Of a stretch of 64,000 nucleotides of DNA, positions 9,415 to 60,730 are shown in pieces. The first letter of the stretch is position 1, and every line of letters begins with the position of its first letter. The DNA comes from Candidatus Methylacidiphilum fumarolicum (GTDB lineage: Bacteria > Verrucomicrobiota > Verrucomicrobiia > Methylacidiphilales > Methylacidiphilaceae): NCBI RefSeq assembly GCF_949774925.1, contig NZ_OX458932.1, positions 186,001 to 250,000 on the forward strand, written 5' to 3'. The position numbers and the translations under genes are program-made. Under the pieces are notes generated by a model. The model searched no databases and was not told the DNA's origin. It worked only from the letters and a program-made list of their open reading frames with translations.

Positions 9415-10536
9415 CTATCGATGAATAGTAGGTCTTTTGTAAAGGGGTTTTTTCCGGATTTCAAATGGATAGAGTTTGTTCCTAATTTCTATTTCAATTT
9501 TGTTGCCTATGAGTGCATACGATTTATGCACATACCCCATACCGATTGTCCTTCCTAGGGAAGGGGACCATATGCCGCTTGTTACCTCGCCGCACTTTTG
9601 GCCTTGAAAAAAAATTGGAGAACCTGTTTTGGGCTGAGGTGAGGCCTCTTCGCAGGCGACAAAAGCAACAAGGAGGGTTTGAAAAGAGTCCTTCAATAGG
9701 ACAAGCGCAGCTTTCCCTGGGAAAGAATAGGGTTTTGAAAGACTAACAGCTTTACTTAAGCCAGCTTCCCAGGGTGTTTTATCTTCTCTAAGATCGACTC
9801 CATTCAATGGTAAGGAAGCTTCAAGCCTAAGAATATTCCTGCTTGCTAGGCCGCAGGGTAATAATCCATAGGGTTTACCTGCTTCCAGTAAATGATCCCA
9901 TAATTGCCTAGCAATTTTACCAGGGAAAAATAGTTCGGCTCCGTCTTCTCCTGTATACCCTGTGGCAGCAATATACAAAAATTCTTTTTCAAAAATGATT
10001 TTTTTTATCGTGTGCTTGGGAATGGGATCCAGGGAAAACACCTCTTTGAGTACATTCCAGGATGTGGGTCCCTGTATGGCAATACAGCCCCATTTTCGGC
10101 GGTTGTCAATCAAGCTAACATCCCCAAAAGGAAGATAACCATGCAGGAGCGAATAATCTTTTTCTGATGCACAAGCATTTACTACTAGTAGATAAGAAGA
10201 GGAACCAATCCGGTAAAGAATCAGATCGTCAATAATCCCACCGCTCTCCGAAAGGATTAAATGGTACTGGCTTTCTGAGTCTTTTAAAAGGGATAAGTCG
10301 TTGGTTAAAATTCCATTTAGCCATTCCATCGCCTTGGGCCCTTCCACAAAGAATTGACCCATATGAGAGAGATCGAATATGCCAGAATTTTCTCTGACGG
10401 CTTGGTGTTCTTTTATGGCTGAAGTATAATAAATCGGCATCCACCATCCACTATACGTTCCCATGTATGCCCCAAGCTCAATGTGGCGATTGTATAGAAA
10501 GGTGGTGAAGGGAACTGAACCACTTGGAGCAATCAC
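9415..10536 (-). CDS. gcvT: Aminomethyltransferase, T-protein of glycine cleavage
   Basis: A 373-residue T-protein that transfers the one-carbon unit from GcvH-bound aminomethyl to tetrahydrofolate, releasing ammonia. Family features are GIFDLSHMGQFFVEGP near the start, the folate-binding QGPTSW and ATGYTGEDGAELF segments, and the GLASRNILRLEASLPLNG motif. The conserved Arg-Leu-Glu is present in LRLEASLPLNG. The predicted start is a GTG at 10536. I looked for a glycine riboswitch upstream and saw none. First gene of a gcvT-gcvH-gcvP operon; the gene for lipoamide dehydrogenase is not in the window. Confidence 0.95.
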   Translation of the reverse strand: MIAPSGSVPFTTFLYNRHIELGAYMGTYSGWWMPIYYTSAIKEHQAVRENSGIFDLSHMGQFFVEGPKAMEWLNGILTNDLSLLKDSESQYHLILSESGGIIDDLILYRIGSSSYLLVVNACASEKDYSLLHGYLPFGDVSLIDNRRKWGCIAIQGPTSWNVLKEVFSLDPIPKHTIKKIIFEKEFLYIAATGYTGEDGAELFFPGKIARQLWDHLLEAGKPYGLLPCGLASRNILRLEASLPLNGVDLREDKTPWEAGLSKAVSLSKPYSFPGKAALVLLKDSFQTLLVAFVACEEASPQPKTGSPIFFQGQKCGEVTSGIWSPSLGRTIGMGYVHKSYALIGNKIEIEIRNKLYPFEIRKKPLYKRPTIHR

Positions 10537-10675: not shown

Positions 10676-10704
10676 TTGACAGATCTTTTTTTAGTAGATA
10701 ATAC
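10676..10704 (+). promoter_or_regulatory. Sigma-70-like promoter for the membrane module
   Basis: TTGACA at 10676-10681, 17 bp, then TAATAC at 10699-10704. This matches the bacterial housekeeping consensus closely and lies about 100 bp before the GTG start. The decayed second copy keeps TTGACA at 24533-24538 but has AAAACA where the -10 box would be. Confidence 0.65.
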
Positions 10705-10807
10705 TAGGAATATTTGAAAAGAAAAGCGATCGGCTGCTTTTTAGGTTCTTTTGGCCAATCAAAAAAAAGGAGTAGTCTTCTTTTGCTCACATCCTATGGA
10801 GGAAACC

Positions 10808-11374
10808 GTGAACGATGATAGTGAAAATCGTTTTTCCATAGATGATCTGAATATTAAAGTTCAACAGGCTCAGGAAATTCTTCTCGATCTCGAGAGAAGA
10901 AAAGAGGAAATTGAGCGACAAAAAAAACAGCTAGAAGAATTACGGCAAAAGCAAAGGACTTTTGAAGAAGATCATAGGACAGCTGTTGATTTGCTGACCA
11001 GAGGGCTTGTACTCCTTGAAAGACAAGCCGGAGAACTGAAAAGACAGCTTGAAGAAATTGAGTCTATCCATTCCCAATTTAGCGACCAGCTAAAAGCCAT
11101 AGAATCTATTCAACCTGCCAGTTGGGATCCCATGAACTTGGAAGATGAGTTGAATAAGGCTCTTGTAACCGTTGAACAAGCAAAAACCATTTATGCGCAG
11201 TATCGAGACAAGGTCGGTAGTGTAACTGAAAGATTGGCGATCGAAGAAGAAGTGGAAGAGGAAGAAGAAGTTCCTTTTCGCTTCTGGAATAAGGTTATGA
11301 GCGGTTTTGCCTATTCTTTACCCCTTATTTTAGTCCTGTTGGCTGGTATGGTGATCTGGGTCCTTAAGAAATAG
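10808..11374 (+). CDS. Coiled-coil tail-anchored membrane protein, function unknown
   Basis: About 188 residues. I chose the GTG at 10808 because GGAGG lies just upstream and because the decayed paralogue at 24661 has ATG at exactly this place (AACGATGATAG follows in both). An upstream TTG at 10751 would add 19 residues. Most of the protein is rich in Glu, Gln, Lys and Arg with heptad-like Leu and Ile spacing, a long coiled coil (DLERRKEEIERQKKQLEELR and onward). After an acidic stretch, the last about 25 residues form one hydrophobic helix (SLPLILVLLAGMVIWVLKK) with a basic end. I infer a bitopic protein with its bulk in the cytoplasm. I do not recognise a family. It is followed 18 bp later by a second tail-anchored small ORF. 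Confidence 0.75.
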   Translation: MNDDSENRFSIDDLNIKVQQAQEILLDLERRKEEIERQKKQLEELRQKQRTFEEDHRTAVDLLTRGLVLLERQAGELKRQLEEIESIHSQFSDQLKAIESIQPASWDPMNLEDELNKALVTVEQAKTIYAQYRDKVGSVTERLAIEEEVEEEEEVPFRFWNKVMSGFAYSLPLILVLLAGMVIWVLKK

Positions 11375-11392
11375 CGAAGGGAGTTTTAAAAA

Positions 11393-11569
11393 ATGCATTT
11401 GGGAAAAGACGAAGAAGAGTTCAGAGAATATCTATTAAGATCTGAAATCCGCTCCGCAGCTTTTTATCATAAGGCTCAAAAAAAGAAAGATAGACGTAAT
11501 TTTTTTTTCCTGTTCGTTTTTTTGTGTTTGATCCTTTTTTTCCTCTGGCGCCGCTGGATCTACCTTTAA
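11393..11569 (+). CDS. 58-residue tail-anchored small membrane protein
   Basis: A short ORF from ATG 11393 to TAA 11567-11569, preceded by GAAGGGAG. The first about 36 residues are charged (GKDEEEFREYLLRSEIRS, then KAQKKKDRR). The rest is one hydrophobic helix (FFFLFVFLCLILFFL) ending WRRWIYL. It follows the coiled-coil membrane protein by 18 bp, and the same pair order is kept in the decayed copy (27168-27335). Pairing across the duplication suggests that the two products work together. Function unknown. Confidence 0.65.
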   Translation: MHLGKDEEEFREYLLRSEIRSAAFYHKAQKKKDRRNFFFLFVFLCLILFFLWRRWIYL

Positions 11570-11705: not shown

Positions 11706-13307
11706 GTGATGGCGCGAGCCAAGGAGAAAGACAGCGGAAGCGGCGCCAATGTAGGCTACGAAGATGAACTCTGGCGCATGGCCGATAAGCTTCGTGGCAG
11801 TATGGATGCTGCGGAATACAAGCATGTAGTTCTGGGATTGATCTTCCTGAAGTATATTTCCGATGCTTTTGAGGAGAAGCATGCCGCGCTGGAGGCAGAA
11901 AAGGATCAAGGGGCTGACCCGGAGGACCCTGATGAATACCGCGCCGAAAACATATTCTGGGTGCCGCCTAAGGCGCGCTGGTCCCGCATTAAGGTGCAGG
12001 CCCGTCAAGCCACGATTGGTCAGTTGATCGACGATGCCATGGTTGAGATCGAGCGCGACAACCCAGCGCTCAAAGATGTTTTGCCAAAGGACTATGGGCG
12101 CCCGGCGCTGGACAAAACCCGTCTCGGGCAGCTCATCGACCTGATTTCCAATATCAAAGTCGGCGACGTCGCAGCGCGGTCGAAAGACGTGCTCGGCCGG
12201 ATCTATGAATATTTCCTGTCACAGTTCGCCAGTGCCGAAAAGAAGAAGGGCGGGGAGTTCTATACGCCGCGTTGCGTCGTCAAGCTGCTCGTTGAGATGC
12301 TGGAGCCTTACCGCGGACGTGTCTACGACCCATGCTGCGGATCAGCCGGCATGTTTGTGCAATCGGTGGAGTTTATCCGAGCTCACGCCAGCGGCAACGG
12401 CAACGGTGGCAAAGCCAAAGGCAACATCTCGATTTACGGTCAGGAGTCGAACTACACCACTTGGCGGCTCGCCAAGATGAACCTGGCCATCCGCGGCATC
12501 GACGGTAAAATCGAGCATGGCGATACCTTCCATGAGGACCGCTTCCCCGACCTCAAGGCCGACTTTATCCTGGCAAACCCGCCGTTCAACATGAGCGACT
12601 GGGGTGGCGACAGACTGAGAGGCGACAAGCGTTGGCAATATGGCGTTCCCCCAGCTGGCAACGCCAACTTTGCCTGGGTGCAGCACATCGTCTATCATCT
12701 AGCGCCGAACGGAACGGCCGGAATCGTGCTGGCAAACGGCTCCATGTCATCCAACCAATTGGGAGAGAGCGAGATAAGGAAGGCGCTGGTTAAAGCGGAC
12801 TTAGTGGACTGCATGGTGGCGCTGCCCGGCCAGCTTTTCTATTCAACGCAGATTCCCGCTTGCCTCTGGTTTCTGGCTCGAGACCGAAAGAATCACAAAT
12901 TCCGCGACCGGCGCGGCGAGGTGCTATTCATTGACGCGCGCAAGCTCGGCTTCATGGCCGACCGCACGCACCGGGAACTAACCAATGCGGACATTGCCAA
13001 GATCGCCGGAATGTACCATCTGTGGCGCGGCGAGAAGAATGTCCCGACCGAGGCCGTGGATGGGTTGATCGTATATAAGGACATTCCCGGCTTCTGTAAG
13101 GCAGCGAAACTGGAGGAGATCGAGAAGCATGGGTTTGTTCTTACCCCTGGCCACTATGTCGGCGCGGCACCGCAAGAATCGGATGATGAACCATTCGAGC
13201 AAAAGATGCAGCGGCTCGTATCTCAATGGCAGAACCAACAGAACGAGGCCGCAAAGATCGACGCTGCTATTGCCGCCAACCTGAAGGAGTTGGGCTATGG
13301 TGAGTGA
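11706..13307 (+). CDS. hsdM: Type I restriction-modification N6-adenine methyltransferase subunit
   Basis: A 533-residue HsdM. It methylates adenine in the sites chosen by HsdS and is also needed for restriction by the full complex. The N-terminal helical domain ([20 protein letters not shown]) is typical. SAM-binding motif [12 protein letters not shown] is near residue 208, and the catalytic NPPF motif of N6-adenine methylases is near 290 ([12 protein letters not shown]). GTG at 11706 is directly followed by ATG at 11709; the ATG is the likelier start given GGAG about 10 nt upstream. It overlaps hsdS by 11 nt. Its GC content looks clearly higher than the neighbouring gcv genes, a sign of transfer. 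Confidence 0.96.
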
Positions 13308-14597
13308 GTGGCGGGAATACCGGATCGGCGAAATAGCTGAAATCGTCGGCGGGAGCACGCCATCTACTGCCGATCCGTCGAACTTCAACGGAGAGATTCC
13401 TTGGCTCACGCCAAAAGATCTTTCAGGACCACATGAGCGTTACGTGTCTCGAGGTGAGCGGAACCTATCACGGAAGGGCCTGGAAAGTTGCTCCGCGCAG
13501 CAACTTCCGGTAGGCACGGTGCTCCTTACAAGTCGGGCTCCTATCGGATACGTTGCTATTGCGAAGACTCCCCTTGCGACGAACCAGGGATTCCGCAACC
13601 TCATACCGAAGCCTGGTTTTGATTCCGACTTTCTCTATTATTGGCTCAGAGCACACGATGAAGAACTCCAGCGCCACGCCAGTGGTTCGACGTTTCAGGA
13701 GCTAACTGGATCAGCGCTTGCTCAAATCAGAATTCGTCTGCCTCTCCTCGCTGAGCAACGCGCCATTGCGCACATCTTAGGGACGCTCGATGACAAGATT
13801 GAGTTGAACCGACGGATGAACGAGACGCTGGAGGAGATGGCGCGAGCGATCTTCAAGGATTGGTTCGTTGATTTCGGTCCGACCCGCGCGAAGATGGAAG
13901 GCCGCGCCCCTTACCTTTCTTCAGACATTTGGTCGCTCTTTCCCGATCGCCTAGTCGATTCCGAACTCGGTGAGATCCCAGAGGGGTGGAAGATCGTTCC
14001 TCTCGCTTCCCTTATTGAAGTAAATCCGCCAGAGCAATTGAAGCGCGGGATGCCTGCTCCTTATCTCAACATGGCATCAATCCCGACTACAGGTCCAAAC
14101 CCAGAGCCCTATGTCGTTCGAGAATTTAGTGGATCGGGTGTGCGCTTTCGAAATGGGGATGCGCTACTGGCGCGAATCACTCCATGCTTAGAAAATGGTA
14201 AGTCTGCATTTGTTCAGAACCTTCCTGAAGACCAAGTGGGATGGGGTTCGACAGAATTTATCGTCCTTCGGTCGCGTCCTCCACTTCCTAAAGCAGTGGC
14301 CTATCTGATCGCACGCGATCCGGCATTCCGCGCAAATGCCATTCGAAGTATGACCGGGACATCGGGGAGGCAGCGAGTGTCTTCCGATGCGATAGCTGCG
14401 TATCCGCTGCCACAACCAGAGAGTGATACCCTATGGAGTCATTTAAACAATTTGATTGCTCCGATGTTCGAGCGGATTGCCGCCAATGGTCGGGAAAATC
14501 AAACACTCGTCGCGACTCGCGACCTCCTCCTGCCTAAGCTAATCTCCGGCGAGTTGCGGGTAAAAGATGCGGAACGCTTTTTAAGAGAACGTGGTCT

Positions 14598-14601
<4 letters not shown>
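13297..14601 (+). CDS. hsdS: Type I restriction-modification specificity subunit
   Basis: A 434-residue specificity protein that recognises a split DNA sequence and holds HsdM and HsdR on it. Two target-recognition domains can be seen: one from about residue 1 to 150 ([18 protein letters not shown], then [10 protein letters not shown]) and one from about 225 ([20 protein letters not shown]). Each is followed by a conserved helix: [20 protein letters not shown], and near the end [19 protein letters not shown]. The C-terminus [19 protein letters not shown] is typical. The ATG overlaps the hsdM stop by 11 nt, and the stop overlaps the hsdR ATG as ATGA. The recognition sequence cannot be read from the protein. 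Confidence 0.95.
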
Positions 14602-17768
<3,167 letters not shown>

Positions 17769-17808
17769 GCGGCTCCGTCGGCAACTCTGTCGTAAGGGAG
17801 ACAGGCGG

Positions 17809-18037
17809 GTTCATGCAACGGAGCAAAGGCCATCTGAAATGGATCCTGTTCTTCCTCCAGATCTGAGAGATGAGCGGACTTATCAAAATAAGCGGCAGGC
17901 TCATCCAGCGCACCAAAAGGATAGGCCCCCTCAAAGCAAACAAGCTGACCCTCGATGTTTCGGCACTGCCCACTTAAAACCCACCGAAGAATCGGAGGTA
18001 TGAGGGCAACTCTCGTCTCTACGAGCAGGGCGCTCAT
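17809..18037 (-). CDS. Small ORF overlapping mrr copy 1, probably truncated
   Basis: Begins at ATG 18037, overlapping the mrr stop by 4 nt (ATGA). About 76 residues are shared with the equivalent ORF after mrr copy 2, beginning MSALLVETRVALIPPILRWV, with CFEGAYPFGALDEPAAYFDK and DLEEEQDPF further on. After that the two ORFs diverge completely, exactly where the duplicated DNA ends. The open frame here runs on to 17690, overlapping the end of hsdR antisense, which is unlikely to be the native end. I do not recognise a family. The conserved overlap suggests co-expression with Mrr, or the remains of a larger gene cut by the duplication. Confidence 0.5.
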
Positions 18038-18987
18038 TCCTCGGTGAAAAAGTCTTCGTCGACCCGTTTAAATTCGATCACGCGACTCGACCTGACCCCT
18101 ACAGAATGTTCGATCATCAGCTCGGTCAGCCGCTTTCCGTCGATGAGGATTACACGCTGCGGAATTCGTGAGACAAAATCCACCGCTTGCGAGGAGAACG
18201 TCGATGTCGTCACGAAGATTCCTTTGTTTGCGCCAAGCCCCACCAAGCTTCCGACGAATGCCTGCACTTCTGGCCGACCTACGGATGAACCTTTCCCGTA
18301 ACGCTTGGCTTGTACGTAAACGCGATCAAGGCCGAGGGCATCTTCGTTGATGACACCGTCCACTCCGCCGTCACCGCTCCGCCCCAACTGCCTTGCTGCA
18401 TTGCGGCGGGACCCTCCGTAGCCCATCGCGACTAAGAGATCGATGATCAGGCTCTCGAAAGCGCGTGGACTATTTTGAAGAATCCGCTCGAGAAGTTCGG
18501 CCCGAAGCGTGGCTTGAGTTTCGATGTAAGCCTCTTCAACAATCTCCTCCGGCGTGCGTCCGGCCTTCTGCTCGACTATCTCTAGAGGCTCCGCCGGAGT
18601 TTCCTTGCTTGGTTCCGGCTCCTCGAGTGCTCCGTTAGAGTGCTTTCGGAGCGAGCGAAACTTGACGAACTCGCTGTACTGGCTCAAAAAAGAGAGGTCG
18701 ATCTTGGAAGGGTTTTTAGCCAAAACATCTAGACCACGCTGAGTGATGCGAAAGTATCCGCGTCGAGGTGATTCCAAAAGACCGGCTTGCTTCATGTATG
18801 AGCGAGCCCAACTAACGCGGTCGTCGAAGATCGGCCGAATCCCACTTGGGAGCAGCTGCTTTTGCTCGGCATCTGTCAGCCCGAATACTGCTGTCAACGC
18901 TTCAATCGCTTCGCGAAGGGAATGCTCTTGCCGATCGGCTGCGAAGCGCAGCAGGGGGAGCATGATTGATTGAAAGTCTGGGATCGC
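17811..18987. repeat. Tandem repeat copy 1 (mrr plus small ORF)
   Basis: Same-orientation duplicate of 19495-20671, offset 1684 bp. The central part, roughly 17860-18658, differs at only one site that I could find (at 18468: CGCGTGG here, CGTGTGG in copy 2). The two ends are clearly more diverged. Confidence 0.85.
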
Positions 18988-18990
18988 CAT
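18034..18990 (-). CDS. mrr: Mrr-family type IV restriction endonuclease, copy 1
   Basis: A 318-residue Mrr-like protein; this family cuts DNA carrying foreign methylation. The N-terminal winged-helix part (AIPDFQSIMLPLLRFAADRQ through about residue 95) is the classic Mrr_N domain. A linker rich in Glu and Pro follows. The C-terminal Mrr_cat nuclease (about 175-300) has GDGGVDG at 206-212 and QAK at 227-229, giving the D-QxK catalytic arrangement. ATG at 18990 gives the usual family start. It is convergent with hsdR and 4 nt overlapped with a small downstream ORF. A second copy lies 1684 bp upstream in the transcription sense. This copy has the more canonical N-terminus, so it is probably the functional one. 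Confidence 0.9.
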   Translation of the reverse strand: MAIPDFQSIMLPLLRFAADRQEHSLREAIEALTAVFGLTDAEQKQLLPSGIRPIFDDRVSWARSYMKQAGLLESPRRGYFRITQRGLDVLAKNPSKIDLSFLSQYSEFVKFRSLRKHSNGALEEPEPSKETPAEPLEIVEQKAGRTPEEIVEEAYIETQATLRAELLERILQNSPRAFESLIIDLLVAMGYGGSRRNAARQLGRSGDGGVDGVINEDALGLDRVYVQAKRYGKGSSVGRPEVQAFVGSLVGLGANKGIFVTTSTFSSQAVDFVSRIPQRVILIDGKRLTELMIEHSVGVRSSRVIEFKRVDEDFFTEE

Positions 18991-19494
18991 GGTCGTCGCC
19001 GTCGGTTATTAGGAAATAGATATAGAAGCAGCTGCAAAGTGTCAACGCGATAATTGCCTGATTTTCTGCGCGCGCCATGCAAAGGATGCACCGTCCACTG
19101 GGGCAACGGGTGTCTTGCCCGGCAGCTATTGTTCCATCCGGACGCGTCTGGAGGATTACTTGCGGAACCGCTGCTGGTCTAAGCGCCTGGGAAAAGGCCA
19201 GGGAATCGGGTTAACGAGCAAACAGACTATAACGCAAACAAACGCCGTAGAATGTCTCGAAAAGGGCAATATGGACGCCGCAGTGGTAAGAAGCAAGCGA
19301 AGGACGATGTTTCTCCAGGAAGAAGAGCAATGGGTGCCAGGGTAAAGCGTTCGGCATATTCGACGATGGCATGCTTGCCAAAAGAGACGCATCCTCACGG
19401 GGGAATTATCGAGTCGGAAGCCAGGTGAAGTAAAGCGGACCGACCGTTGCCTTGCGGTAGAGGCCAAGCGGAACCAGGTGGGAATATGACAGAT
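18991..19494. other. Spacer between the two mrr copies, no supported gene
   Basis: About 500 bp of mixed sequence. Short frames exist on both strands (for instance 19115-19345 on +), but none shows a motif I can name. The high GC resembles the hsd genes rather than the host, so it may be leftover of another island gene. Confidence 0.4.
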
Positions 19495-19721
19495 TCATGC
19501 AACGGAGCAAAGACTATATGAAATGGATCCTGGCTTTCCTCCAGATCTGAGAGATGAGCGGACTTATCAAAATAAGCGGCAGGCTCATCCAGCGCACCAA
19601 AAGGATAGGCCCCCTCAAAGCAAACAAGCTGACCCTCGATGTTTCGGCACTGCCCACTTAAAACCCACCGAAGAATCGGAGGTATGAGGGCAACTCTCGT
19701 CTCTACGAGCAGGGCGCTCAT
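19493..19721 (-). CDS. Small ORF overlapping mrr copy 2, probably truncated
   Basis: Starts at 19721 with a 4-nt overlap to mrr copy 2. The first about 76 residues are nearly the same as the ORF after copy 1; differences cluster at EESQDPFHIVFAPLHE near the end of the shared part. Beyond 19493 the frame runs on to 19395 in unrelated sequence. Same interpretation as the first: unknown product, probably cut where the duplication ends. Confidence 0.45.
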
Positions 19722-20671
19722 TCCTCGGTGAAAAAGTCTTCGTCGACCCGTTTAAATTCGATCACGCGACTCGACCTGACCCCTACAGAATGTTCGATCA
19801 TCAGCTCGGTCAGCCGCTTTCCGTCGATGAGGATTACACGCTGCGGAATTCGTGAGACAAAATCCACCGCTTGCGAGGAGAACGTCGATGTCGTCACGAA
19901 GATTCCTTTGTTTGCGCCAAGCCCCACCAAGCTTCCGACGAATGCCTGCACTTCTGGCCGACCTACGGATGAACCTTTCCCGTAACGCTTGGCTTGTACG
20001 TAAACGCGATCAAGGCCGAGGGCATCTTCGTTGATGACACCGTCCACTCCGCCGTCACCGCTCCGCCCCAACTGCCTTGCTGCATTGCGGCGGGACCCTC
20101 CGTAGCCCATCGCGACTAAGAGATCGATGATCAGGCTCTCGAAAGCGTGTGGACTATTTTGAAGAATCCGCTCGAGAAGTTCGGCCCGAAGCGTGGCTTG
20201 AGTTTCGATGTAAGCCTCTTCAACAATCTCCTCCGGCGTGCGTCCGGCCTTCTGCTCGACTATCTCTAGAGGCTCCGCCGGAGTTTCCTTGCTTGGTTCC
20301 GGCTCCTCGAGTGCTCCGTTAGAGTGCTTTCGGAGCGAGCGAAATTTGACGAACTCCCTGTACAGGCTCAAAAAAGAGAGGTCGATCTTGGAAGGGTTTT
20401 TCGCCAAGACGTCCAGACCGCGCTGGGTGATGCGAAAGTATCCGCGTCGAGGTGATTCCAAAAGACCGGCTTGCTTCATGTATGAGCGAGCCCAACTAAC
20501 GTGGTTGTCGAAGATCGGCTGAAGCCTACTTAGGAGCAGCAGCTTTTGTTCTGTCTGCGTCAACCAGAATACCACTGTCAACCCTTCGATTGCCTCGCGA
20601 AGAGAATGCTCTTGCCGATCGGCTGCAAAGCGCAACATGGGGAGCATAATCGATTGAAAGTCTGGAATCGC
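19495..20671. repeat. Tandem repeat copy 2 (mrr plus small ORF)
   Basis: Partner of 17811-18987. The segment covering the Mrr catalytic domain and the small ORF is almost identical to copy 1. The part coding the N-terminal domain (about 20343-20671) has many substitutions. Confidence 0.85.
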
Positions 20672-20734
20672 GATGGTCTTTGTTCGGTAATCTATCGAGC
20701 ATTCTTGGTTTTCTCCCTCGAGAACAAAGGGCAA
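19718..20734 (-). CDS. mrr: Mrr-family type IV restriction endonuclease, copy 2, altered N-terminus
   Basis: The catalytic domain matches copy 1 almost residue for residue (GDGGVDG, QAK). The N-terminal domain has drifted: VFGLT is VFWLT here, and PSGIRPIFDDR has become LSRLQPIFDNH. The ATG used by copy 1 is ATC here. The remaining choices are a TTG at 20734, giving 338 residues beginning MPFVLEGENQ, or internal ATGs about 9 residues into the shared part. Copy 2 is therefore either started unusually or failing. The sharp contrast between the drifted N-terminal part and the conserved C-terminal part suggests gene conversion. Confidence 0.65.
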   Translation of the reverse strand: MPFVLEGENQECSIDYRTKTIAIPDFQSIMLPMLRFAADRQEHSLREAIEGLTVVFWLTQTEQKLLLLSRLQPIFDNHVSWARSYMKQAGLLESPRRGYFRITQRGLDVLAKNPSKIDLSFLSLYREFVKFRSLRKHSNGALEEPEPSKETPAEPLEIVEQKAGRTPEEIVEEAYIETQATLRAELLERILQNSPHAFESLIIDLLVAMGYGGSRRNAARQLGRSGDGGVDGVINEDALGLDRVYVQAKRYGKGSSVGRPEVQAFVGSLVGLGANKGIFVTTSTFSSQAVDFVSRIPQRVILIDGKRLTELMIEHSVGVRSSRVIEFKRVDEDFFTEE

Positions 20735-21015
20735 TCCTATTTCTGCAGAGAAAGAAGGCTGTGGCGAAATGACTCTGGTAAGCCTGGAGTTCTACCCGGA
20801 ATCTTTGCATTGAACGGCAAGAGAGCAAGCCTCCCACGCTCTGTCGAATCCTTCGGAGTTAGGGGTTGAAAAACTGAACCATTACTATTTTACTCACAAC
20901 TCTAGGGAAGGATCGAAGAAAACGCCTGAAGCCCAACATCCATCATTATTGTAAAGAAGAGATGTTAGAATTGGGGCATGGCAAGGTTGGACTACGAATC
21001 CCAGACTTTAGGTTA

Positions 21016-21330
21016 TCATTGGTCCTGTTGATTCTTCGCAGAGTCTGACTCGATCGCCTCCTTTAGCAACTTATCAGATAGCTCCTTTATCTTGGTGGTC
21101 TCGGGAAAGCGGAGATTCTCTGCGATAATACCGGCTGCCCTGAGCGCCCCGGCATTGAAGAGCATTTCGTCACGGGATCGGTTTGGATCATGCTCGACCG
21201 CTTTCAAGAGCTCCTGGCAAATCCTTTTTGCGATCTTTAATGATATCTCCGCTTCCCGCTCGTATTCCCGCTCAGCTCTGGCAATTTCCTGCGTTGCGAG
21301 ACGCGCTAGGAAATATTCCCAAGCCTTCAT
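21016..21330 (-). CDS. Small helical protein, function unknown
   Basis: A 104-residue, almost entirely helical, charged protein (EREYEREAEISLKIAKRICQ; later LRAAGIIAENLRFPETTKIK). The start has a good ribosome site (AAAGGAGGACCT upstream of the ATG). No catalytic motif is visible. It sits alone inside the defence island, between mrr copy 2 and the SIR2 unit. The helical make-up and location could suit a toxin-antitoxin or immunity partner, but nothing shows that. Confidence 0.55.
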   Translation of the reverse strand: MKAWEYFLARLATQEIARAEREYEREAEISLKIAKRICQELLKAVEHDPNRSRDEMLFNAGALRAAGIIAENLRFPETTKIKELSDKLLKEAIESDSAKNQQDQ

Positions 21331-21805
21331 AGGTCCTCCTTTCTCTGTTGTATAGATGATCTAATCTTTTACACAGAAAGTTAGCTTTCTGGCGAGACAA
21401 AAGCTGCCCAACCCCTCGTGATCGTCGGAGGATTGAATCATTGAGAGTAATCCAATCATCTCCTCATTCTTGTCCAACTGTAAGGGACAATGCGGCCTTT
21501 CTGCTTTTCTCATTGACTTTCCTGCTGTCGCAAGCAAGTCAAGTTCTTGCGTTGTCAGAGGACCAAATTAGGCTATTTCCTGATAAATTGTGATTCGGTA
21601 AAGCGTCCCAATGTATGGAGACATGCGGTGGACCACGATAGTAAGAAAGTTGTTTATTGCCACACTCATATAACGCCTCTGATCTTTTCCATCTTCATCG
21701 ATTCAGCGAATGGTCTGTTTTAAGTTCGATTTAATGGATTCTGTCATATAAATCCATCTTGACAAAAATCTTATTATTCGATAGTTTTCTAAAATTTTAT
21801 TTATT
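21331..21805. other. Intergenic stretch without supported gene
   Basis: About 475 bp before the SIR2 unit. It becomes AT-rich toward 21780. I see no complete reading frame with support. It presumably holds the promoter of the SIR2 unit. Confidence 0.4.
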
Positions 21806-21940
21806 TTGAACAAGGATAAAGATGCTGCTTCGAAGATCGTCAATGATCTATTCGGGAAAAATCCCGCGACATGGTATCATGGTAGAAAGGAAATTCAATT
21901 CTGTATCGTTTGTATAGGATATCCGGCATGCTTGATTTGA
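21806..21940 (+). CDS. Possible short leader ORF ahead of SIR2 unit
   Basis: A TTG-started frame of 44 codons, with coding-like composition (DKDAASKIVNDLFGKNPATW), ending at TGA 21938-21940. It overlaps the start of the next ORF by 13 nt in another frame. It could be a leader, or the front half of the next gene separated by a frameshift. Weak support. Confidence 0.25.
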   Translation: MNKDKDAASKIVNDLFGKNPATWYHGRKEIQFCIVCIGYPACLI

Positions 21941-22206
21941 AACTTAATCATCGCAATTACGATCTAGAGTTGATAGCGATAACGGATGCAACGTTCGCAT
22001 TTTACATTGGGATGGAAACCAGACGGGTTGCTTCAGCTGTTTTAAAAGTTATCAAAGATGCTTGTGTTCGATTTGGCATGCTGCCAAACGATTTTTATTT
22101 GCAGGCTAGCGTCGGACCAGTGTTGAAACCGATCCTCTTATCTGGATGGTGTACTCGGGAGCCTTTCGCAGTGGGCCAAATCAACGCTCTTTTAACTAAT
22201 GATTGA
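21928..22206 (+). CDS. Small ORF overlapping the SIR2-domain gene
   Basis: From ATG 21928 (AGGAT a few nt upstream) it codes 92 residues with mixed helix and strand character (MLDLKLNHRNYDLELIAITD; later ASAVLKVIKDACVRFGMLP). A TTG at 21910 would add 6 residues. It ends 8 nt inside the SIR2 gene, so the pair is likely translationally coupled. I recognise no family. It may be a partner or regulator of the SIR2 effector, or the remaining end of a larger gene. Confidence 0.5.
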   Translation: MLDLKLNHRNYDLELIAITDATFAFYIGMETRRVASAVLKVIKDACVRFGMLPNDFYLQASVGPVLKPILLSGWCTREPFAVGQINALLTND

Positions 22207-23962
22207 TCCAATCATCCCGCTTTCGCTTTTGCTTCAGGCCAATAAAGGAGCATACGCAATTTTGGTCGGCTCAGGTGTTTCTCATGCTGCCGGAATTCCG
22301 ACGGGATGGGAAATTACGTGCGATCTCATTCGCAAGGTTGCAATATCGAAAGGAGAGCAGATTGAAGGCGATCCGGGAGAATGGTATGAGCGTTCTTACA
22401 ATAAGCCGCCGGATTATTCTGATCTTCTTGAGGAGCTTGCTAAAACCCCCGATGAACGGCGAGCTTTGCTAAGCTCGTATTTTGAACCGACGAAGGAAGA
22501 GCGAGAACGAGGTCTTAAACTGCCTTCGCGAGCCCATCGCGCCATTGCGGAACTGGTGCATCTGGGATATGTACGGGTAATCCTCACCACGAATTTTGAT
22601 CGTCTACTCCAAACCGCACTCTCGGAAAGGGGAATCGAACCAACTATGATTTATACGAATGAGCAGGTATCGGGCTTCTCTTCTCTTTGGTCGGTTCGTT
22701 GTTTGGTTTGGAAGATTCACGGCGATTATCGGGATTCCCGAATTCTAAACACCGAATCGGAACTCAAGGAGTATCCCGAGGAGATCAATCGTCTCCTGGA
22801 CCGAATCCTTGGAGAATTCGGGCTTATCGTTTGTGGTTGGTCGGCAAAATGGGACATTGCCTTGCGTAAAGCGCTTGAACGATCCACAAATCATCGGTTT
22901 ACCACTTTTTGGGCTTACAAAGGCGCGCTCGAGGAGGAGGCCAGTCGACTGATTAGTCTGCGGGGGGCAACTCAGATCCCTATTTCGGATGCCGATAGTT
23001 TTTTTGAAGATCTGTTGACCAAAGTCCAGGCTGTGGAAGCTTTAGGCCGCAATCATCCCATCTTGGCAAAAGAGGAAGTCAAGCTCTACCTTGCCGAACA
23101 TCGCTATCGGATTCGGCTTCATGATTTGATTAGCCTGGAAATCCAGGAGACCAAAGAGAGAATCGTTTCTGCCAACTTTCCAACTAATTGCTCATTTGTC
23201 GCCGGGGAGTACTGCAGACGGAGGAAAGCGTACCAAACGATGAGCGATTCTCTACTCTCTATGCTCCTGCCGCTTGCCTATCACGATCCCGGACAACACA
23301 CGAAGCTCTTGATTCGAGCGATTGAGAGCCTTGGTCCGTTGTCGTTGATGAGCATTGCCTATTCCTCCGAATACGAGCTGCTCCGTTTTTATCCAGCACT
23401 CCGCTGTTTTTATGGAGCTGGCTTGGCTGCGCTCGCTAACCAGCGTTGGAAGAATCTAGTTGCTCTGCTTTGTCACGCCGAATGTACGGATACAACCCAG
23501 TTAAAAAAAATTCCGGCGGTTGGCCTTTTGAACCCTAAACGAGTTTTGGAAGAGTGGAATGCAAGGAATACATTAGAAAGAGAATCCCAAGTGAAGGCGC
23601 CGGGCAGCGAGTTTCTTTTTAAAGAGATGCAGCCGGCATTACTGGAGTATGTGGCAGAGGAGAACTATGAGGAAGTCTTTGACCGCTTTGAACATCTCCT
23701 TTCCTTTAAGTATTTAGATTTTGTGAATTTGGGTCGAATCGAAGAAAACAACGTTCCCTTCGGACGTTACCTGCGACGAATTGATATCAATAGAACAGAC
23801 GCTGTGAACTCAGAAATTTTTAAGCCGGAAGAAGTTCTTCCTAAAAAAGTGGTCGAACGATTCAAGTTCACCGAAAGTTGGGATAGATTTTACCAGCTGT
23901 GGTTGGCCCATCGGAACCTGGCGTTCCGTGAAGCGTGCTACCCCAGGAGGAGTGCGAATTGA
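22199..23962 (+). CDS. SIR2-domain protein, candidate antiphage NADase effector
   Basis: A 587-residue protein. The N-terminal about 280 residues form a SIR2-like NAD-binding domain: GSGVSHAAGIP at 24-34 (the GAG-x-S-x-x-x-GIP loop), TTNFD at 130-134 (equivalent of TQNID, with the catalytic Asn), KIHGD at 172-176 (catalytic His), and CGWSAKWD at 212-219. Proteins of this SIR2 type in defence islands degrade NAD+ when infection is sensed (ThsA, DSR and related systems). The C-terminal about 300 residues, probably the sensing part, match no domain I can name. It follows and overlaps a small ORF by 8 nt, with type I RM and Mrr genes nearby. The defence role is inferred from domain and neighbourhood. 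Confidence 0.8.
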   Translation: MIDPIIPLSLLLQANKGAYAILVGSGVSHAAGIPTGWEITCDLIRKVAISKGEQIEGDPGEWYERSYNKPPDYSDLLEELAKTPDERRALLSSYFEPTKEERERGLKLPSRAHRAIAELVHLGYVRVILTTNFDRLLQTALSERGIEPTMIYTNEQVSGFSSLWSVRCLVWKIHGDYRDSRILNTESELKEYPEEINRLLDRILGEFGLIVCGWSAKWDIALRKALERSTNHRFTTFWAYKGALEEEASRLISLRGATQIPISDADSFFEDLLTKVQAVEALGRNHPILAKEEVKLYLAEHRYRIRLHDLISLEIQETKERIVSANFPTNCSFVAGEYCRRRKAYQTMSDSLLSMLLPLAYHDPGQHTKLLIRAIESLGPLSLMSIAYSSEYELLRFYPALRCFYGAGLAALANQRWKNLVALLCHAECTDTTQLKKIPAVGLLNPKRVLEEWNARNTLERESQVKAPGSEFLFKEMQPALLEYVAEENYEEVFDRFEHLLSFKYLDFVNLGRIEENNVPFGRYLRRIDINRTDAVNSEIFKPEEVLPKKVVERFKFTESWDRFYQLWLAHRNLAFREACYPRRSAN

Positions 23963-24467: not shown

Positions 24468-24660
24468 TGTCTAGGCTATTTCACCATAAATAGATTGAAA
24501 GTGAAAAAATAAATAATTCTTTCTGTTTCTTTTTGACAGACCATTTTTAGTGATGAAAACAGAGGTGGTTATTTCAAAAAATACGATCGAATGCTTTATA
24601 GTTTCTCTAGATCAGTCAAAACCAATAGTCTTTATTTGCGGCTATCCTATAAAGGAAACC

Positions 24661-25192
24661 ATGAACGATGATAGCGTAAACCGTTTTTCCATAGAGGATC
24701 TGAATATTAAAGTTTAACAGGCTCAAGAAAATGTTTCTTGATCTAGAAAGAGGAAAAAAAGGAATTGAGCGGCAAAAAAACAACTCGAAGAATTACGGGA
24801 AAAAAAGGACCTATGAAGAAGACCATAAAACAGATGCTGACTTACTACTCAGAGGGTTACTTCTTCATGAGAGACAAGCAGGAGAACTGAAAAGAGAACT
24901 AGAGGAGATCGAATCCATCCATTCTTAATTTAGTGATCAGCTAAAAACTATAGAATAGATTCAGCCAGCAACTTGGGATCCTGCAAAACTAGAAGATGAG
25001 TTGAATAAGGCTCTTGTGATTGTTGAACAAGCAAAAACTGTGTATTCACAATATCGGAATAAAACAAGTGGTGTTACCGAAAAGATTTCAAATGAAGAAG
25101 AAATCAAATAGGAGGAATAGGTTCTTTTTCGCTTTTGTAACGAGGTTTGACTGGATTTGCTTATTTTTTGCCACTGATTGTGCTCCTGTTAG
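24661..25192 (+). pseudogene. Broken paralogue of the coiled-coil membrane protein, 5' part
   Basis: Aligns along its length with the intact gene at 10808-11374, beginning with ATG in place of GTG. It has an early in-frame stop (CAA to TAA at the KVQQAQ site), further TAA and TAG stops (at SIHS-stop and after EEIK) and frameshifts in the Lys/Arg-rich part. The last piece, coding the membrane helix, is cut at 25192 by the IS; the remainder continues at 27115. Confidence 0.85.
25189..25192 (+). repeat. Target-site duplication TTAG, left
   Basis: TTAG immediately before the left inverted repeat. The same 4 bp follow the right inverted repeat at 27115-27118. Removing the IS and one TTAG restores alignment with the intact module (CTCCTGTTAGCCGGCTTGG here against GTCCTGTTGGCTGGTATGG). 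Confidence 0.85.
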
Positions 25193-27114
25193 CCCATGTT
25201 TGGTGAAAATGGGCTAATTTTGGGGGTGCTCCAGGGGAGAGGAAGCGATTTTTGCAAAAACATAGTGCTACATTGTGAATAACTATTTTTAAGTTATTGT
25301 TCTATTATTCTTGCATTCGTTGGCGTTTTGAAATAATGTCTCTTTATGTTTTTGCGGATCGTGCCGATTCGGCGGCCAAGCGGGAAGGTGGACCAGTATG
25401 TTCGGCTGGTGGAGAGCTACTACGATCGAGGGAAGATTAAGCAGCGGACGATTGCCAATCTGGGGCGGAAGGAGCTTTTGGCTCCGCATGTGGACCGGCT
25501 TGTGGAGCTTCTGAGAGGAGAGCCGCCGAAGACGACGGGAAGCTGGAAGGCAAAATCGGCGGCAGTTTGGGGACCGACCTTGGTGGCGAGGGCTCTTTGG
25601 GAGGAGTTAGGGTTTCCGGAGCTTTTGGAGGCATCTGGTAAGAGGCCGCAAGCTGTTTCTCTTGAGGAGAGAGCGTTTGTTTTGGTGGCTCATCGGCTGA
25701 TTTGTCCAGGAAGCGAACATGCCTTAGCCCAGTGGTTAGAGACGGATTATGTAGCCGATTGGAGGGGGGAACGGATTCTGCCGATATGGAAGGAAAATGG
25801 TCGGGTGCGGGTGGACCATCGGTTTCTTTGGCCTTGGTATCGAACGCTGGATGAGCTGATTCAACGGAAGGAAGAGCTGGAAGAGGGGCTTTTTAGTCGG
25901 CTGCGAGATCTTTTTTCCCTCCAGCCTGAGAGGGTCTTCTACGACTTGACTTCCACCTATTTCGAAGGGGAAGGGCCAGAGGAGCTAGCTCAATTTGGGT
26001 ACAGTCGGGACCGGCGGGAAGGCAATCGGCAGATTCTTTTGGGGGTCGTGATGGTGAATGGTTGGCCGATTGCCCACCATGTGTTTCGAGGCAATCTTAA
26101 GGATGGAGAGACGGTACAGAGGGTGGTGGAGGATTTAGAGAAGCGTTTTGGGCTTCAGCGGGTGGTTTTTGTGGGGGACCGGGGGATGGTGAGCACGGCC
26201 AACTTGGGTTTTCTCTGGAGTCAGAGCCATGGGTTTTTGGTGGGACTTCGGCGGCGGAGAAGCCCGGAGGTCCTAGAGTATCTTTGCCAGGCGCAAGCGG
26301 GCTGCTGGCAGCCTTGTGCTTCGGGAAGTAACGACCGGGTTTGCGAAGTTCCGGGACGTCTCCCGGGGCAGCGGATCTTTGTGGTGGAGAGTGCCGAGCG
26401 GCTCGCCTACGAGCAAGCGATGCGGGAGGCAGCGGTCTCGAAGATTCGGGAAGAGCTGGAGAAGCTGGCGAAGCGGGTGGAAAAAGGAGAGCTTCGAGAT
26501 CCTGAGAAAATCGGAGCTGCTGCCGGGCGCATCCTCTCGGCCCATCATGGGCATCGCTACTTCCGCTGGAGTCTTTCTTCCGGTCGCTTCGAGTTTTCTC
26601 AAGAGCCCTTGGAAGAGGAGAAGCTTTTGGAAGGCAAGTACCTCATTTTGACAGAAGAAAAACATCTCTCCGCGGTAGAGGCCGTAGGTGCCTACAAGGA
26701 GCTTAGCCAAGTGGAACGGGCCTTTCGGAAGCTAAAGGATGTCCTAGAGATGCGTCCGATCTATCACCATGATCCCCAGCGGGTCCAGGCCCATGTCTTT
26801 GTTGCCGCCTTGGCCTTCTTGCTTGACCGACTCTTGGAGAAAAAGCTAAAGCTAGCCAAGCTTCCCTTTTCCACCGAAGAGGCCTTGACTCACCTCCGGA
26901 CCGTCCACGTCGTCGAGGCAGATGTTGGAGGCACCAAACACCGCGGGGTCACGGCAGGAAACCGACAGGCGCGTCAGATCCTTTCCGGCCTGAAAATCAG
27001 CTCCTTAGAGCCTTGGAAACTCAAAAAAAGAACCTCTAAAACCCCCACATAGTGACACATTGAAAAAAGGACCATTGATAATCAATAACTTACGAAAATT
27101 TCACCAAACATGGG
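25193..27114 (+). mobile_element. Complete insertion sequence, IS1634-like, 1922 bp
   Basis: Bounded by inverted repeats that share a perfect 16-bp core, CCCATGTTTGGTGAAA at 25193-25208 and its complement at 27099-27114, with TTAG on each side. It holds one transposase gene. The element interrupts the broken membrane-protein gene. A 391-bp deletion derivative with related ends lies at 32678-33068. Confidence 0.9.
25346..27052 (+). CDS. DDE transposase, IS1634-like (IS4 superfamily)
   Basis: A 568-residue transposase with the family opening (QYVRLVESYYDRGKIKQRTI, then LAPHVDRLVELL). The likely catalytic triad is D in FYDLTSTYFEG near residue 200, D in VFVGDRGM near 278, and E in ELSQVERAFRKLKDVLE near 452, the last within the Y-(2)-R-(3)-E-(6)-K-like region typical of the IS4 group. 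The frame is intact, so the element may be active. The start could be the ATG at 25346 or a nearby alternative. The family name is from memory of the protein pattern; the 4-bp duplication is shorter than I expect for IS1634. Confidence 0.85.
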   Translation: MFLRIVPIRRPSGKVDQYVRLVESYYDRGKIKQRTIANLGRKELLAPHVDRLVELLRGEPPKTTGSWKAKSAAVWGPTLVARALWEELGFPELLEASGKRPQAVSLEERAFVLVAHRLICPGSEHALAQWLETDYVADWRGERILPIWKENGRVRVDHRFLWPWYRTLDELIQRKEELEEGLFSRLRDLFSLQPERVFYDLTSTYFEGEGPEELAQFGYSRDRREGNRQILLGVVMVNGWPIAHHVFRGNLKDGETVQRVVEDLEKRFGLQRVVFVGDRGMVSTANLGFLWSQSHGFLVGLRRRRSPEVLEYLCQAQAGCWQPCASGSNDRVCEVPGRLPGQRIFVVESAERLAYEQAMREAAVSKIREELEKLAKRVEKGELRDPEKIGAAAGRILSAHHGHRYFRWSLSSGRFEFSQEPLEEEKLLEGKYLILTEEKHLSAVEAVGAYKELSQVERAFRKLKDVLEMRPIYHHDPQRVQAHVFVAALAFLLDRLLEKKLKLAKLPFSTEEALTHLRTVHVVEADVGGTKHRGVTAGNRQARQILSGLKISSLEPWKLKKRTSKTPT

Positions 27115-27335
27115 TTAGCCGGCTTGGTGATATAGATTTTCAAGAAACAGTTGCATTTGTTAAATATATGGGAAAAGACGAAGAAGAATTCAAAGAATAT
27201 CTCTTAAGATCCGAACTTCGTGTAGCTACCTTTCCCATAGCGCTCAAAAAAAGGAAAATAGACATAATTTTTTCCTGATCGTTTTTTTGTGTTTGATCCT
27301 TTTCCCCCTCTGGCTTCGTCTGGATCTATCTCTAG
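27115..27335 (+). pseudogene. Broken end of the membrane module (second small gene)
   Basis: After the TTAG duplication comes the tail of the coiled-coil pseudogene. The paralogue of the 58-residue gene then begins at ATG 27168 (GKDEEEFKEYLLRSELR). A deletion in the T-run at the start of the membrane helix shifts the frame to a stop at 27276-27278. Nucleotide similarity to the intact gene goes on to TAG 27333-27335. Confidence 0.75.
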
Positions 27336-27494: not shown

Positions 27495-28172
27495 TTAAGG
27501 GCTTCCATCGATGACTTTTTTAACGTTGATGAGACTGGTTTTGTGTCGAATATCTTTTGCTCGGTAAAGGTAATAGACTTCTTCTGCTATATTTTTGGCG
27601 TGATCAGCCGCTCGTTCTATGGCTCTTGAAACTAGCATAAGATTAAGACCTTGAGGAATAGCATCTGGATCTTCCCTCATAATTTTTACTAGGCAACCAA
27701 AAAGTTCTTTGTTCATCCTATCAACAATTTTGTCTTCTCTAACCACACTTAATGTCTCCTTTGGATTGCCAGTAATGAAGCTATCGATAGCTTCCTGATA
27801 CATTTTTCTTGTGATTTCAGCCATTTTTTCAATGTTGAAATAAGATTTTAAGGGAGGTTTCTCGTTCAATTGAAGAGCGATTCGAGAAATTGTAACGGCT
27901 TGATCTCCAATTCGCTCAAGATCGCTAGAAATTTTGGAGGCGACAAGGGCTAATCGACAATCGATGGCTACAGGGCTATGAGTAGCGATAAAAGTGATAA
28001 TTTGATCGTCAATTTTGACTTCCAAAGAATCGAGATCTTCATCTCCTTTAATGACGTTTTTTGCTAATTCATCATTACGCTCGATCAATGCTTTGAGTGC
28101 TAATTGAAGACTGCGGGCAGCTATGCTAGCCATCAAAAGAAGAGTTTCGCGGATCTGCTCAATAGTTATCAT
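27495..28172 (-). CDS. phoU: PhoU-type phosphate transport regulator
   Basis: A 225-residue, all-helical protein with the two PhoU repeats. Each carries the E/D-rich metal-binding motif, seen as KVIKGDEDLDSLEVKIDDQ near residue 40 and the VREDKIVDRMNKEL region near 145, and each is followed by the family pattern RIGDQAVTIS and RAADHAKNIAEEVYYL. PhoU links the Pst phosphate transporter to the PhoR kinase and keeps the Pho regulon off when phosphate is plentiful. No pst or phoBR genes are adjacent, so it sits apart from its usual operon. Confidence 0.93.
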   Translation of the reverse strand: MITIEQIRETLLLMASIAARSLQLALKALIERNDELAKNVIKGDEDLDSLEVKIDDQIITFIATHSPVAIDCRLALVASKISSDLERIGDQAVTISRIALQLNEKPPLKSYFNIEKMAEITRKMYQEAIDSFITGNPKETLSVVREDKIVDRMNKELFGCLVKIMREDPDAIPQGLNLMLVSRAIERAADHAKNIAEEVYYLYRAKDIRHKTSLINVKKVIDGSP

Positions 28173-33179: not shown

Positions 33180-34514
33180 TTAGTTTGTTGGATGCACAGA
33201 GGGTGGAGTCTCTAGATCTTGGCTTAAGGTATCCTTAGATTCGGATTGAGGATAGCGGTTTTCTTCAATGATTGTTTTGATGAGATCATCAACACCGGAA
33301 AGTTCTTCGCTGAAATAAGTCGAAGTATAATCGCTAGTTTTGGCATTGGCTGGAATTTCAGTGATTGGTTTAAGCACGGAACTTCCCTTGTGGGAGACAT
33401 TTACTTTGGTGACCACTGATAGACCCAGTCTTAATGGATGTTGGATTAGTTCTTTAGGATCAAGCCGAATTCTTACAGGGACTCGTTCCACCACATGAAT
33501 ATAATTGCCTGTGGCATTATCGGGAGGAAGCAAGGCAAATACGGTTCCAGAGCCAGGCTCTAAGCCTTCCACCACTCCATGGTATAAATAACGCCTCCCA
33601 TAAATATCAGCTCTGATTTTAACCGGTTGGCCAGGTTTCATTTTTCTTAGTTCAGTTTCCCTATAATTAGCTACTACCCAATAATAGTCCAAGGGGACAA
33701 TATTCATAAGCAGTCGATCGGGTGTGACTTCATCTCCAACCTGAATCGATCTTCTAGCCACATAACCCGCCACGGGGGCTACAATTTGACACCTATAAAG
33801 AGCTAGATAAGCATTCTTCAAATCTACAGCTGCTTTGAGCACAATAGGATTATCCCAAACGGTCGTTTTTTGAATCCAGGATTCCGTAGAATGTAATTCA
33901 TCTTCCAGCTGACGAATCGTTGATTCTATTTCCTGCACTTTCCATTGGGCATCAATCGCGTCCTGAACAGAAACGACGCCTGCTTTGCTCCCTGAAGCAT
34001 AAAGCCCTAGATCATACCGCTGTCGTCCTAATATGGCTTTTTGAGCGGCTATTTTGTTTCTCAGGGATTTGGCCTTATTGAACAGATCCTCAACTTTACG
34101 CACGGCCATGGCTAGATTCTGTTTGGCTCCTTCGAAGGCGACTCTCTGGTTTAAGGAGTCTAATCGGACAAGCACCTGATTTTTCTTAACATACTGAGTG
34201 GATTCGACGAGTACTTCCACTACTCTGCCCGAAGTTTGTGCTTTGACGGGAATGACATTGCCTGTCACATAGGCGTCGTTAGTTGCCACCCAGTTGCTTG
34301 AAAAGAAAAACCACCAGCCGGCCAAGAAGAAAAGAAAAAGTAAAGGAAGCACATATTTATTTCTAGTAAGCTGCCATGCCCTCCAATCCCGTTTCCAGGA
34401 AAGAATAATAACATGGAAAAGACGCTCAAAGCGGCTTCTGCTTTCTTTCTGCCGTCCCTTTTCTGTAAAAGGAAAGGTCCTTTTCCCATTATTCTGCTCT
34501 GCGTCTTTTTTCAT
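33180..34514 (-). CDS. HlyD/EmrA-family periplasmic adaptor of a drug pump
   Basis: Start at ATG 34514, with AGAGGAAAAG ahead; the longer frame at 34616 overlaps the upstream MFS gene. About 444 residues. It has a basic N-terminus, one membrane helix (YVLPLLFLFFLAGWWFFF), a first lipoyl-like half (VATNDAYVTGNVIPVKAQTS), a long coiled-coil hairpin, then the second half (CQIVAPVAGYVARRSIQVGD) and a beta-barrel part. EmrA-type adaptors join an MFS pump to an outer-membrane channel. The MFS gene and a TolC-like gene precede it in the same direction. The Pro-rich C-terminal tail of about 60 residues is extra. Confidence 0.9.
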   Translation of the reverse strand: MKKDAEQNNGKRTFPFTEKGRQKESRSRFERLFHVIILSWKRDWRAWQLTRNKYVLPLLFLFFLAGWWFFFSSNWVATNDAYVTGNVIPVKAQTSGRVVEVLVESTQYVKKNQVLVRLDSLNQRVAFEGAKQNLAMAVRKVEDLFNKAKSLRNKIAAQKAILGRQRYDLGLYASGSKAGVVSVQDAIDAQWKVQEIESTIRQLEDELHSTESWIQKTTVWDNPIVLKAAVDLKNAYLALYRCQIVAPVAGYVARRSIQVGDEVTPDRLLMNIVPLDYYWVVANYRETELRKMKPGQPVKIRADIYGRRYLYHGVVEGLEPGSGTVFALLPPDNATGNYIHVVERVPVRIRLDPKELIQHPLRLGLSVVTKVNVSHKGSSVLKPITEIPANAKTSDYTSTYFSEELSGVDDLIKTIIEENRYPQSESKDTLSQDLETPPSVHPTN

Positions 34515-34542
34515 GTTTTTCTTTTCCTCTTTTATGCCTCCT

Positions 34543-36057: not shown

Positions 36058-36320
36058 ACCGAATCGGAAAATGATCGAAGGAAAGAAGCGGGATTGTTTG
36101 GAGTACCTTTAGAAGGAGAACAAAAAGAAGAGAGCTTATAGCAAGCCCTTTGCTTGAAGTTTGCCGTTATCCGCCTCTTTACCATGTGGTCTCCTTTTCT
36201 TAATAGGTAATCGTAGGAGCTATCAGCCTTCTCAAAGGAGTGGCGGTTAACGGACGGCGAGCCCCATCGCCCAATAGTTGTTTGTATATCTAGAATGATG
36301 CAATTTTCAACAAAAATATG

Positions 36321-59572: not shown

Positions 59573-59674
59573 GTCTTGACTATATCAGATAGTGACCTCT
59601 TTTTCATTTTTTTTCTGCAGCATGCTTTTCTGTTAGTGTGAACTTCTCTTCTTTCTCCATCCTTATTATACCGC

Positions 59675-60625: not shown

Positions 60626-60730
60626 GTCTTGACTATATCAGATAGTGGCCTTTTATCCATTTTTTTCTGCTGAGTGGCTCATCTAGATGTTCCCAGCTCT
60701 ATAATGCTTTTCCTGCCCTTGTTATACTGC

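Follow-up and report, generated by a model that had tools for sequence, protein, structure and literature searches.

A conserved gene pair of Verrucomicrobiota encoding predicted tail-anchored membrane proteins, with a tentative role in wall growth or division

Bacterial division makes use of two small single-pass coiled-coil proteins, FtsL and FtsB (DivIC), which function together and in which an N-terminal membrane helix is followed by a periplasmic coiled coil. Another layout is that of SecE and other bacterial tail-anchored proteins, which are short and have a basic stretch and a C-terminal membrane helix. In the Corynebacteriales, SteA and SteB, single-pass membrane proteins encoded in one operon, assemble into a complex with a function in cell separation; the N-terminal part of SteA is cytoplasmic and its membrane helix C-terminal, and the soluble domain of SteB lies outside the membrane (PMC6705760). 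We have analysed two genes, A and B, of Candidatus Methylacidiphilum fumarolicum in a stretch of 64,000 nucleotides (contig NZ_OX458932.1, positions 186,001 to 250,000), called the window below. Like SteA–SteB, A and B are adjacent, co-directional genes for predicted single-pass membrane proteins of one lineage (63 of the 64 loci compared), and A resembles SteA in its predicted C-terminal membrane helix after a probably cytoplasmic part, whereas B, unlike SteB, ends at the membrane helix and has no extracytoplasmic C-terminal domain. SteA–SteB would be the nearest functional parallel that we found, a parallel of layout. A is unlike FtsL, FtsB and DivIC in that its coiled coil stands before the C-terminal helix, and no Pfam match to these families is listed for the A or B members. 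B is like SecE in layout but differs in its gene neighbourhood, and SecE was rejected as its family, there being no Pfam match to it among 38 B proteins.

The preliminary description of this DNA had proposed two ORFs of the same topology, 18 bp apart, behind a near-consensus promoter, and all of this was borne out, the topology at the level of predicted helices (Table 1). With 2.1 promoter-like sites of this kind expected in the region and five found, the score alone is weak; each of the five Methylacidiphilum sequences compared (G000, G008, G009, G010 and G011), however, has the same boxes at this position. The AlphaFold2 model of A consists of helices only (mean pLDDT 80, pTM 0.40): a helix at residues 4–99, a turn with the sequence P-x-x-W-x-P, a second helix at 108–152, a low-confidence linker and a final helix at 158–187. 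Heptad periodicity is significant in the first helix and not significant in the second taken alone. An alignment of 65 members shows G166 and P172 in every one (65/65) and W106 in 63, and in 40 loci of the class A has a single C-terminal membrane helix lying 1–11 residues from the end of the protein. The prediction for B is one helix, of moderate confidence. Comparison with G010 shows purifying selection on both genes, which is strong in A (dN 0.007, dS 0.167, dN/dS about 0.04) and also in B (dN 0.022, dS 0.203, dN/dS about 0.11), and B differs from its counterparts in G008 and G009 mainly at third codon positions.

Table 1 Positions of the gene pair, its signals and its surroundings, counted from the first nucleotide of the window
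Feature	Position	Strand	Remarks
gcvT (name from our own reading of the ORF)	9415..10536	-	Divergent upstream neighbour of A; 93% DNA identity to gcvT beside A–B in G010
Promoter of A–B	10676..10705	+	TTGACA-18-AATACT; 10 of 12
Ribosome-binding site	10798..10802	+	GGAGG, 5 nt upstream of the GTG of A; conserved in five species
Gene A	10808..11374	+	188 aa; GTG start at 10808; coiled coil and C-terminal membrane helix (about 158–187)
Gene B	11393..11569	+	58 aa; 18 bp past A; basic juxtamembrane motif QKKKDRRNF and C-terminal membrane helix
Restriction island	11706..23962	.	hsdM, hsdS, hsdR, two mrr copies, SIR2-domain gene
Relic of gene A (pseudogene), including about 150 bp upstream	24511..25194	+	Stops, frameshifts
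A-like stretch (A') within the relic	24661..25194		Several stops and frameshifts
Insertion sequence between A' and B'	25185..27122	+	24-nt inverted ends (25185–25208 and 27099–27122); 568-aa DDE transposase
Pseudogene copy of B (B')	27165..27332	+	Frameshifted
phoU	27495..28172	-	Pfam PhoU; adjoins B directly in G010, G009 and G008

The hydrophobic part of B is C-terminal, as in A, and lies behind a K/R-rich stretch. Three to nine K/R residues are found within 15 residues before the helix in the 37 B proteins scored, and since, by the positive-inside rule, basic residues next to a membrane helix mark its cytoplasmic side, the N-terminal part of B should be cytoplasmic. The helix flanks of A are less decisive on topology than those of B; A lacks an N-terminal hydrophobic segment, and a cytoplasmic N-terminal part is therefore the simplest reading for this protein too. 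The tail of B after the membrane helix is at most 16 residues long in the loci counted.

The preliminary description also had the order of the pair kept in two copies. The order can still be traced in the second copy, at 24.5–27.3 kb, which proves however to be a relic in decay, interrupted by an insertion sequence; it has 76% DNA identity to the working copy over the whole matched stretch and has lost the −10 box. As a relic of two pseudogenes it was rejected as evidence of function and gives no independent support for the pair, and conservation beyond chance was therefore taken from other genomes instead. For this we used 64 loci from 45 families, picked for family spread and long contigs and hence not a random draw. 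An ORF was counted as B-type if it was short and had one C-terminal hydrophobic helix with at least two K/R residues just before it. Such an ORF lies directly 3' of A in all but one of the loci (44 of the 45 families) and begins at a median of 8 nt past A, against 29 of 497 (5.8%) for the same test after control ORFs in those loci. B is thus conserved in other genomes, contrary to the possibility, raised beforehand, that the small ORF might be conserved nowhere else. The B family ranges from 56 to 179 residues; the Methylacidiphilum protein is a short form, and forms of 61–68 residues, nearly as short, are present in other classes. Many B proteins have in common a juxtamembrane motif, roughly [EQ]R-x-x-[AQD]-R-N-[RK]-[FA], which the B of the window retains in part.

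All 13 genomes of the family have A, in one intact copy each. In the class, 290 of 384 genomes (124 of 171 genera) are positive with a family-level profile, and a class-wide profile detects A in 171 of the 387 genomes of a phylum-wide draw that included other classes, the weakest matches in this draw being near the threshold. Nearly every A-positive genome gives one match, which argues against promiscuous coiled-coil matches. The maximum-likelihood tree of A recovers families and the order to which the window belongs, as the taxonomy predicts. We find these observations best explained if A–B is an operon of two genes that is old in Verrucomicrobiota and has been passed on with the chromosome. 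Even at relaxed thresholds, no convincing A was found in the genomes of two families, f20 (G095 among them) and f16, and the pair is therefore not needed by every member of the phylum. In a genome of 0.916 Mb from family f22 (G027, locus L181), A is broken into separate frames and B is still open; we read this as decay still under way in a genome as small as that of a symbiont, which suggests that the pair can be lost. A scan of a genome collection with two short peptides returned seven relatives, all titled as members of Verrucomicrobia or Methylacidiphilaceae; with the search outside the phylum consisting of these two peptides, this is weak negative evidence that the pair may be specific to the phylum.

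No family had been recognised for either protein in the preliminary description, and the database searches agree. In Pfam and NCBIfam both proteins of the window stay below every curated cut-off, no family common to the members came out of scans of 41 A and 38 B proteins against these collections, and PHROGs gave no convincing match for A or B. A fold search of A against the PDB found nothing at E ≤ 0.001, and PDB sequence matches of A and B were weak and of coiled-coil type. The profile searches placed A in no known family, housekeeping or other. Several candidates were rejected. A scores 13–18 bits against cut-offs of 300–730 for SMC/Rad50-type coiled-coil ATPases and, with 188 residues, has no head domain. 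For phospholamban the scores are 16.6 bits against a cut-off of 25 in Pfam and 18 against 72.85 in NCBIfam, and one of the 38 B members matches. DUF4349 and other weak profile matches fall below cut-off and are of the sort that coiled coils or single helices commonly give. We also considered the PVC signature protein CT421.2 (PMC3444138) as a candidate for a known relative. A literature search on tail-anchored coiled coils in Verrucomicrobia found nothing.

The survey of gene neighbourhoods makes a link to the envelope, as proposed earlier, plausible, because of the genes found beside A–B in other families. A TPR-LysM lipoprotein gene lies directly upstream of the pair at 23 of the 64 loci, in 18 families, the Pfam LysM and TPR domains being confirmed in one tested example, and in several families of other classes (Kiritimatiellae, by our reading) the pair is followed by murG-murC-ddl-ftsQ. 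An O6-methylguanine methyltransferase-like gene is found near the pair in about 9 families, and others have ABC-permease or rRNA-methyltransferase-like genes ahead of it. The neighbours in the family of the window are gcvT and phoU, and no clear full-length TPR-LysM lipoprotein was found in this family. The lipoprotein was rejected as an obligate partner, being present in A-negative genomes with no adjoining A–B: a solitary gene for it occurs in f20 and f16 genomes (L232–L237) in which A was undetected.

The genes, their conservation, order and co-occurrence and the predicted tail anchors come from computation; from them we infer the orientation of the two proteins, their binding and their role. 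Our favoured reading, held tentatively, is that A and B form a tail-anchored cytoplasmic scaffold pair for wall growth or division. Both proteins would most likely be anchored at the C-terminus in the inner membrane, and everything before the tail, the coiled coil of A and the basic stretch of B, would face the cytoplasm. They would bind each other as a hetero-oligomer, and the complex would be a membrane-tethered scaffold of no enzymatic activity of its own, which might gather enzymes, cytoplasmic or membrane-bound, that act in cell-wall growth or division. W106, G166 and P172, at or near invariance, the all-helix prediction and the absence of any match to a catalytic domain in A speak for a scaffold, and the upstream LysM lipoprotein and the downstream murein-synthesis genes speak for the wall or division role. 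Against that role stand the variation of gene context between families, the occurrence of the TPR-LysM lipoprotein without A–B and the f20 and f16 genomes in which A was not detected.

The same topology and conservation data would fit a device for envelope homeostasis or membrane organisation not directly linked to wall synthesis or division, acting for example in stress response, membrane shape or protein quality control. The variable neighbours and the basic juxtamembrane motif of B agree with such a general envelope or membrane role, the recurrent linkage to the LysM protein and the murein-synthesis genes of some families do not, and we consider it nearly as likely as the favoured wall or division role. 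A further set of neighbours, gatC and gatA, is found downstream of the pair at 17 loci in 13 families, and might indicate a translation accessory, A–B holding the GatCAB amidotransferase or further translation factors at the membrane. This we regard as improbable: gatCA are out of reach in most loci and A and B are still together there, the LysM lipoprotein is the upstream neighbour in 18 families, and GatCAB is not known to depend on a membrane anchor.

The remaining role, in which A–B would belong to a defence island and sense damage to the envelope or the entry of phage, goes back to the earlier remark that the pair stands at the edge of such an island; in this one genome it lies about 140 bp from hsdM. 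The island (11.7 to about 24 kb) separates the working pair from the relic pair in the genome of the window. G010 lacks the island and has gcvT, A, B and phoU in that order, and its phoU, like its gcvT, is 93% identical to that of the window. The GC content of the island is 0.48–0.56 against 0.40, and it is a local GC-rich insertion outside the conserved context of A–B. The hsdR of the island is absent from G008, G009, G010 and G006, and in the first three of these A–B adjoin phoU. A is nearly always single-copy and is vertically inherited across the phylum. At the sensitivity used, A was not found in plasmid, phage or viral collections (the viral contigs being searched with the family-level profile), and A–B were not found on such contigs. 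PADLOC gave weak coiled-coil matches only for A and none for B, and the pair shows neither of two marks of known defence systems, a profile that covers most of the protein and a mobile or patchy distribution. Distribution, lack of mobility and the absence of the island in relatives thus led us to reject a defence module; a defence system shared with this island is largely refuted, and we give the sensing role very little credence.

Several other features of the window may be recorded. The island carries two nearly identical Mrr-type restriction genes in tandem (18034–18990 and 19718–20734), each with Pfam Mrr_N and Mrr_cat, whose flanking ORFs are also nearly identical, and a 587-residue SIR2-domain protein (22199–23962) that matches the candidate defence family PDC-S65 with E 1e-184. 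A genome of another genus of the family (G012) has pieces only of hsdR, one with internal stops, and this decayed relative suggests repeated gain and loss of the restriction system. The type I restriction genes of M. fumariolicum SolV are reported to be missing from M. infernorum V4 (PMC4210602). Outside the island, the window holds three nearly identical tandem genes of 315–316 aa (58625–61681), presumably of Uma2/DUF820 type by their look. An operon at 33180–38096 reads as membrane-fusion, major-facilitator and outer-membrane efflux components, which we named by eye.

That A alone is a real gene and B a chance or non-coding ORF is hardly credible, for B is indeed short, hydrophobic and variable in length and gives weak profile scores outside the family, but its regular place after A, far above the rate in controls, its codon-position bias, its low dN/dS and its common juxtamembrane motif all speak against this.

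Wall synthesis and division differ strikingly among PVC bacteria, and in Verrucomicrobium spinosum 100 essential proteins are of no known function (PMC12283558). A–B, with an order kept across much of the phylum, a linkage to a LysM protein and murein genes beside it in places, is a specific candidate in this setting. The pair may, though we hold this with considerable doubt, be a phylum-wide part of the wall-growth or division machinery of Verrucomicrobiota, undescribed in the papers searched and built on tail-anchored cytoplasmic coiled coils, and the insertion library of V. spinosum and its new deletion method (PMC12283558) make A–B testable.
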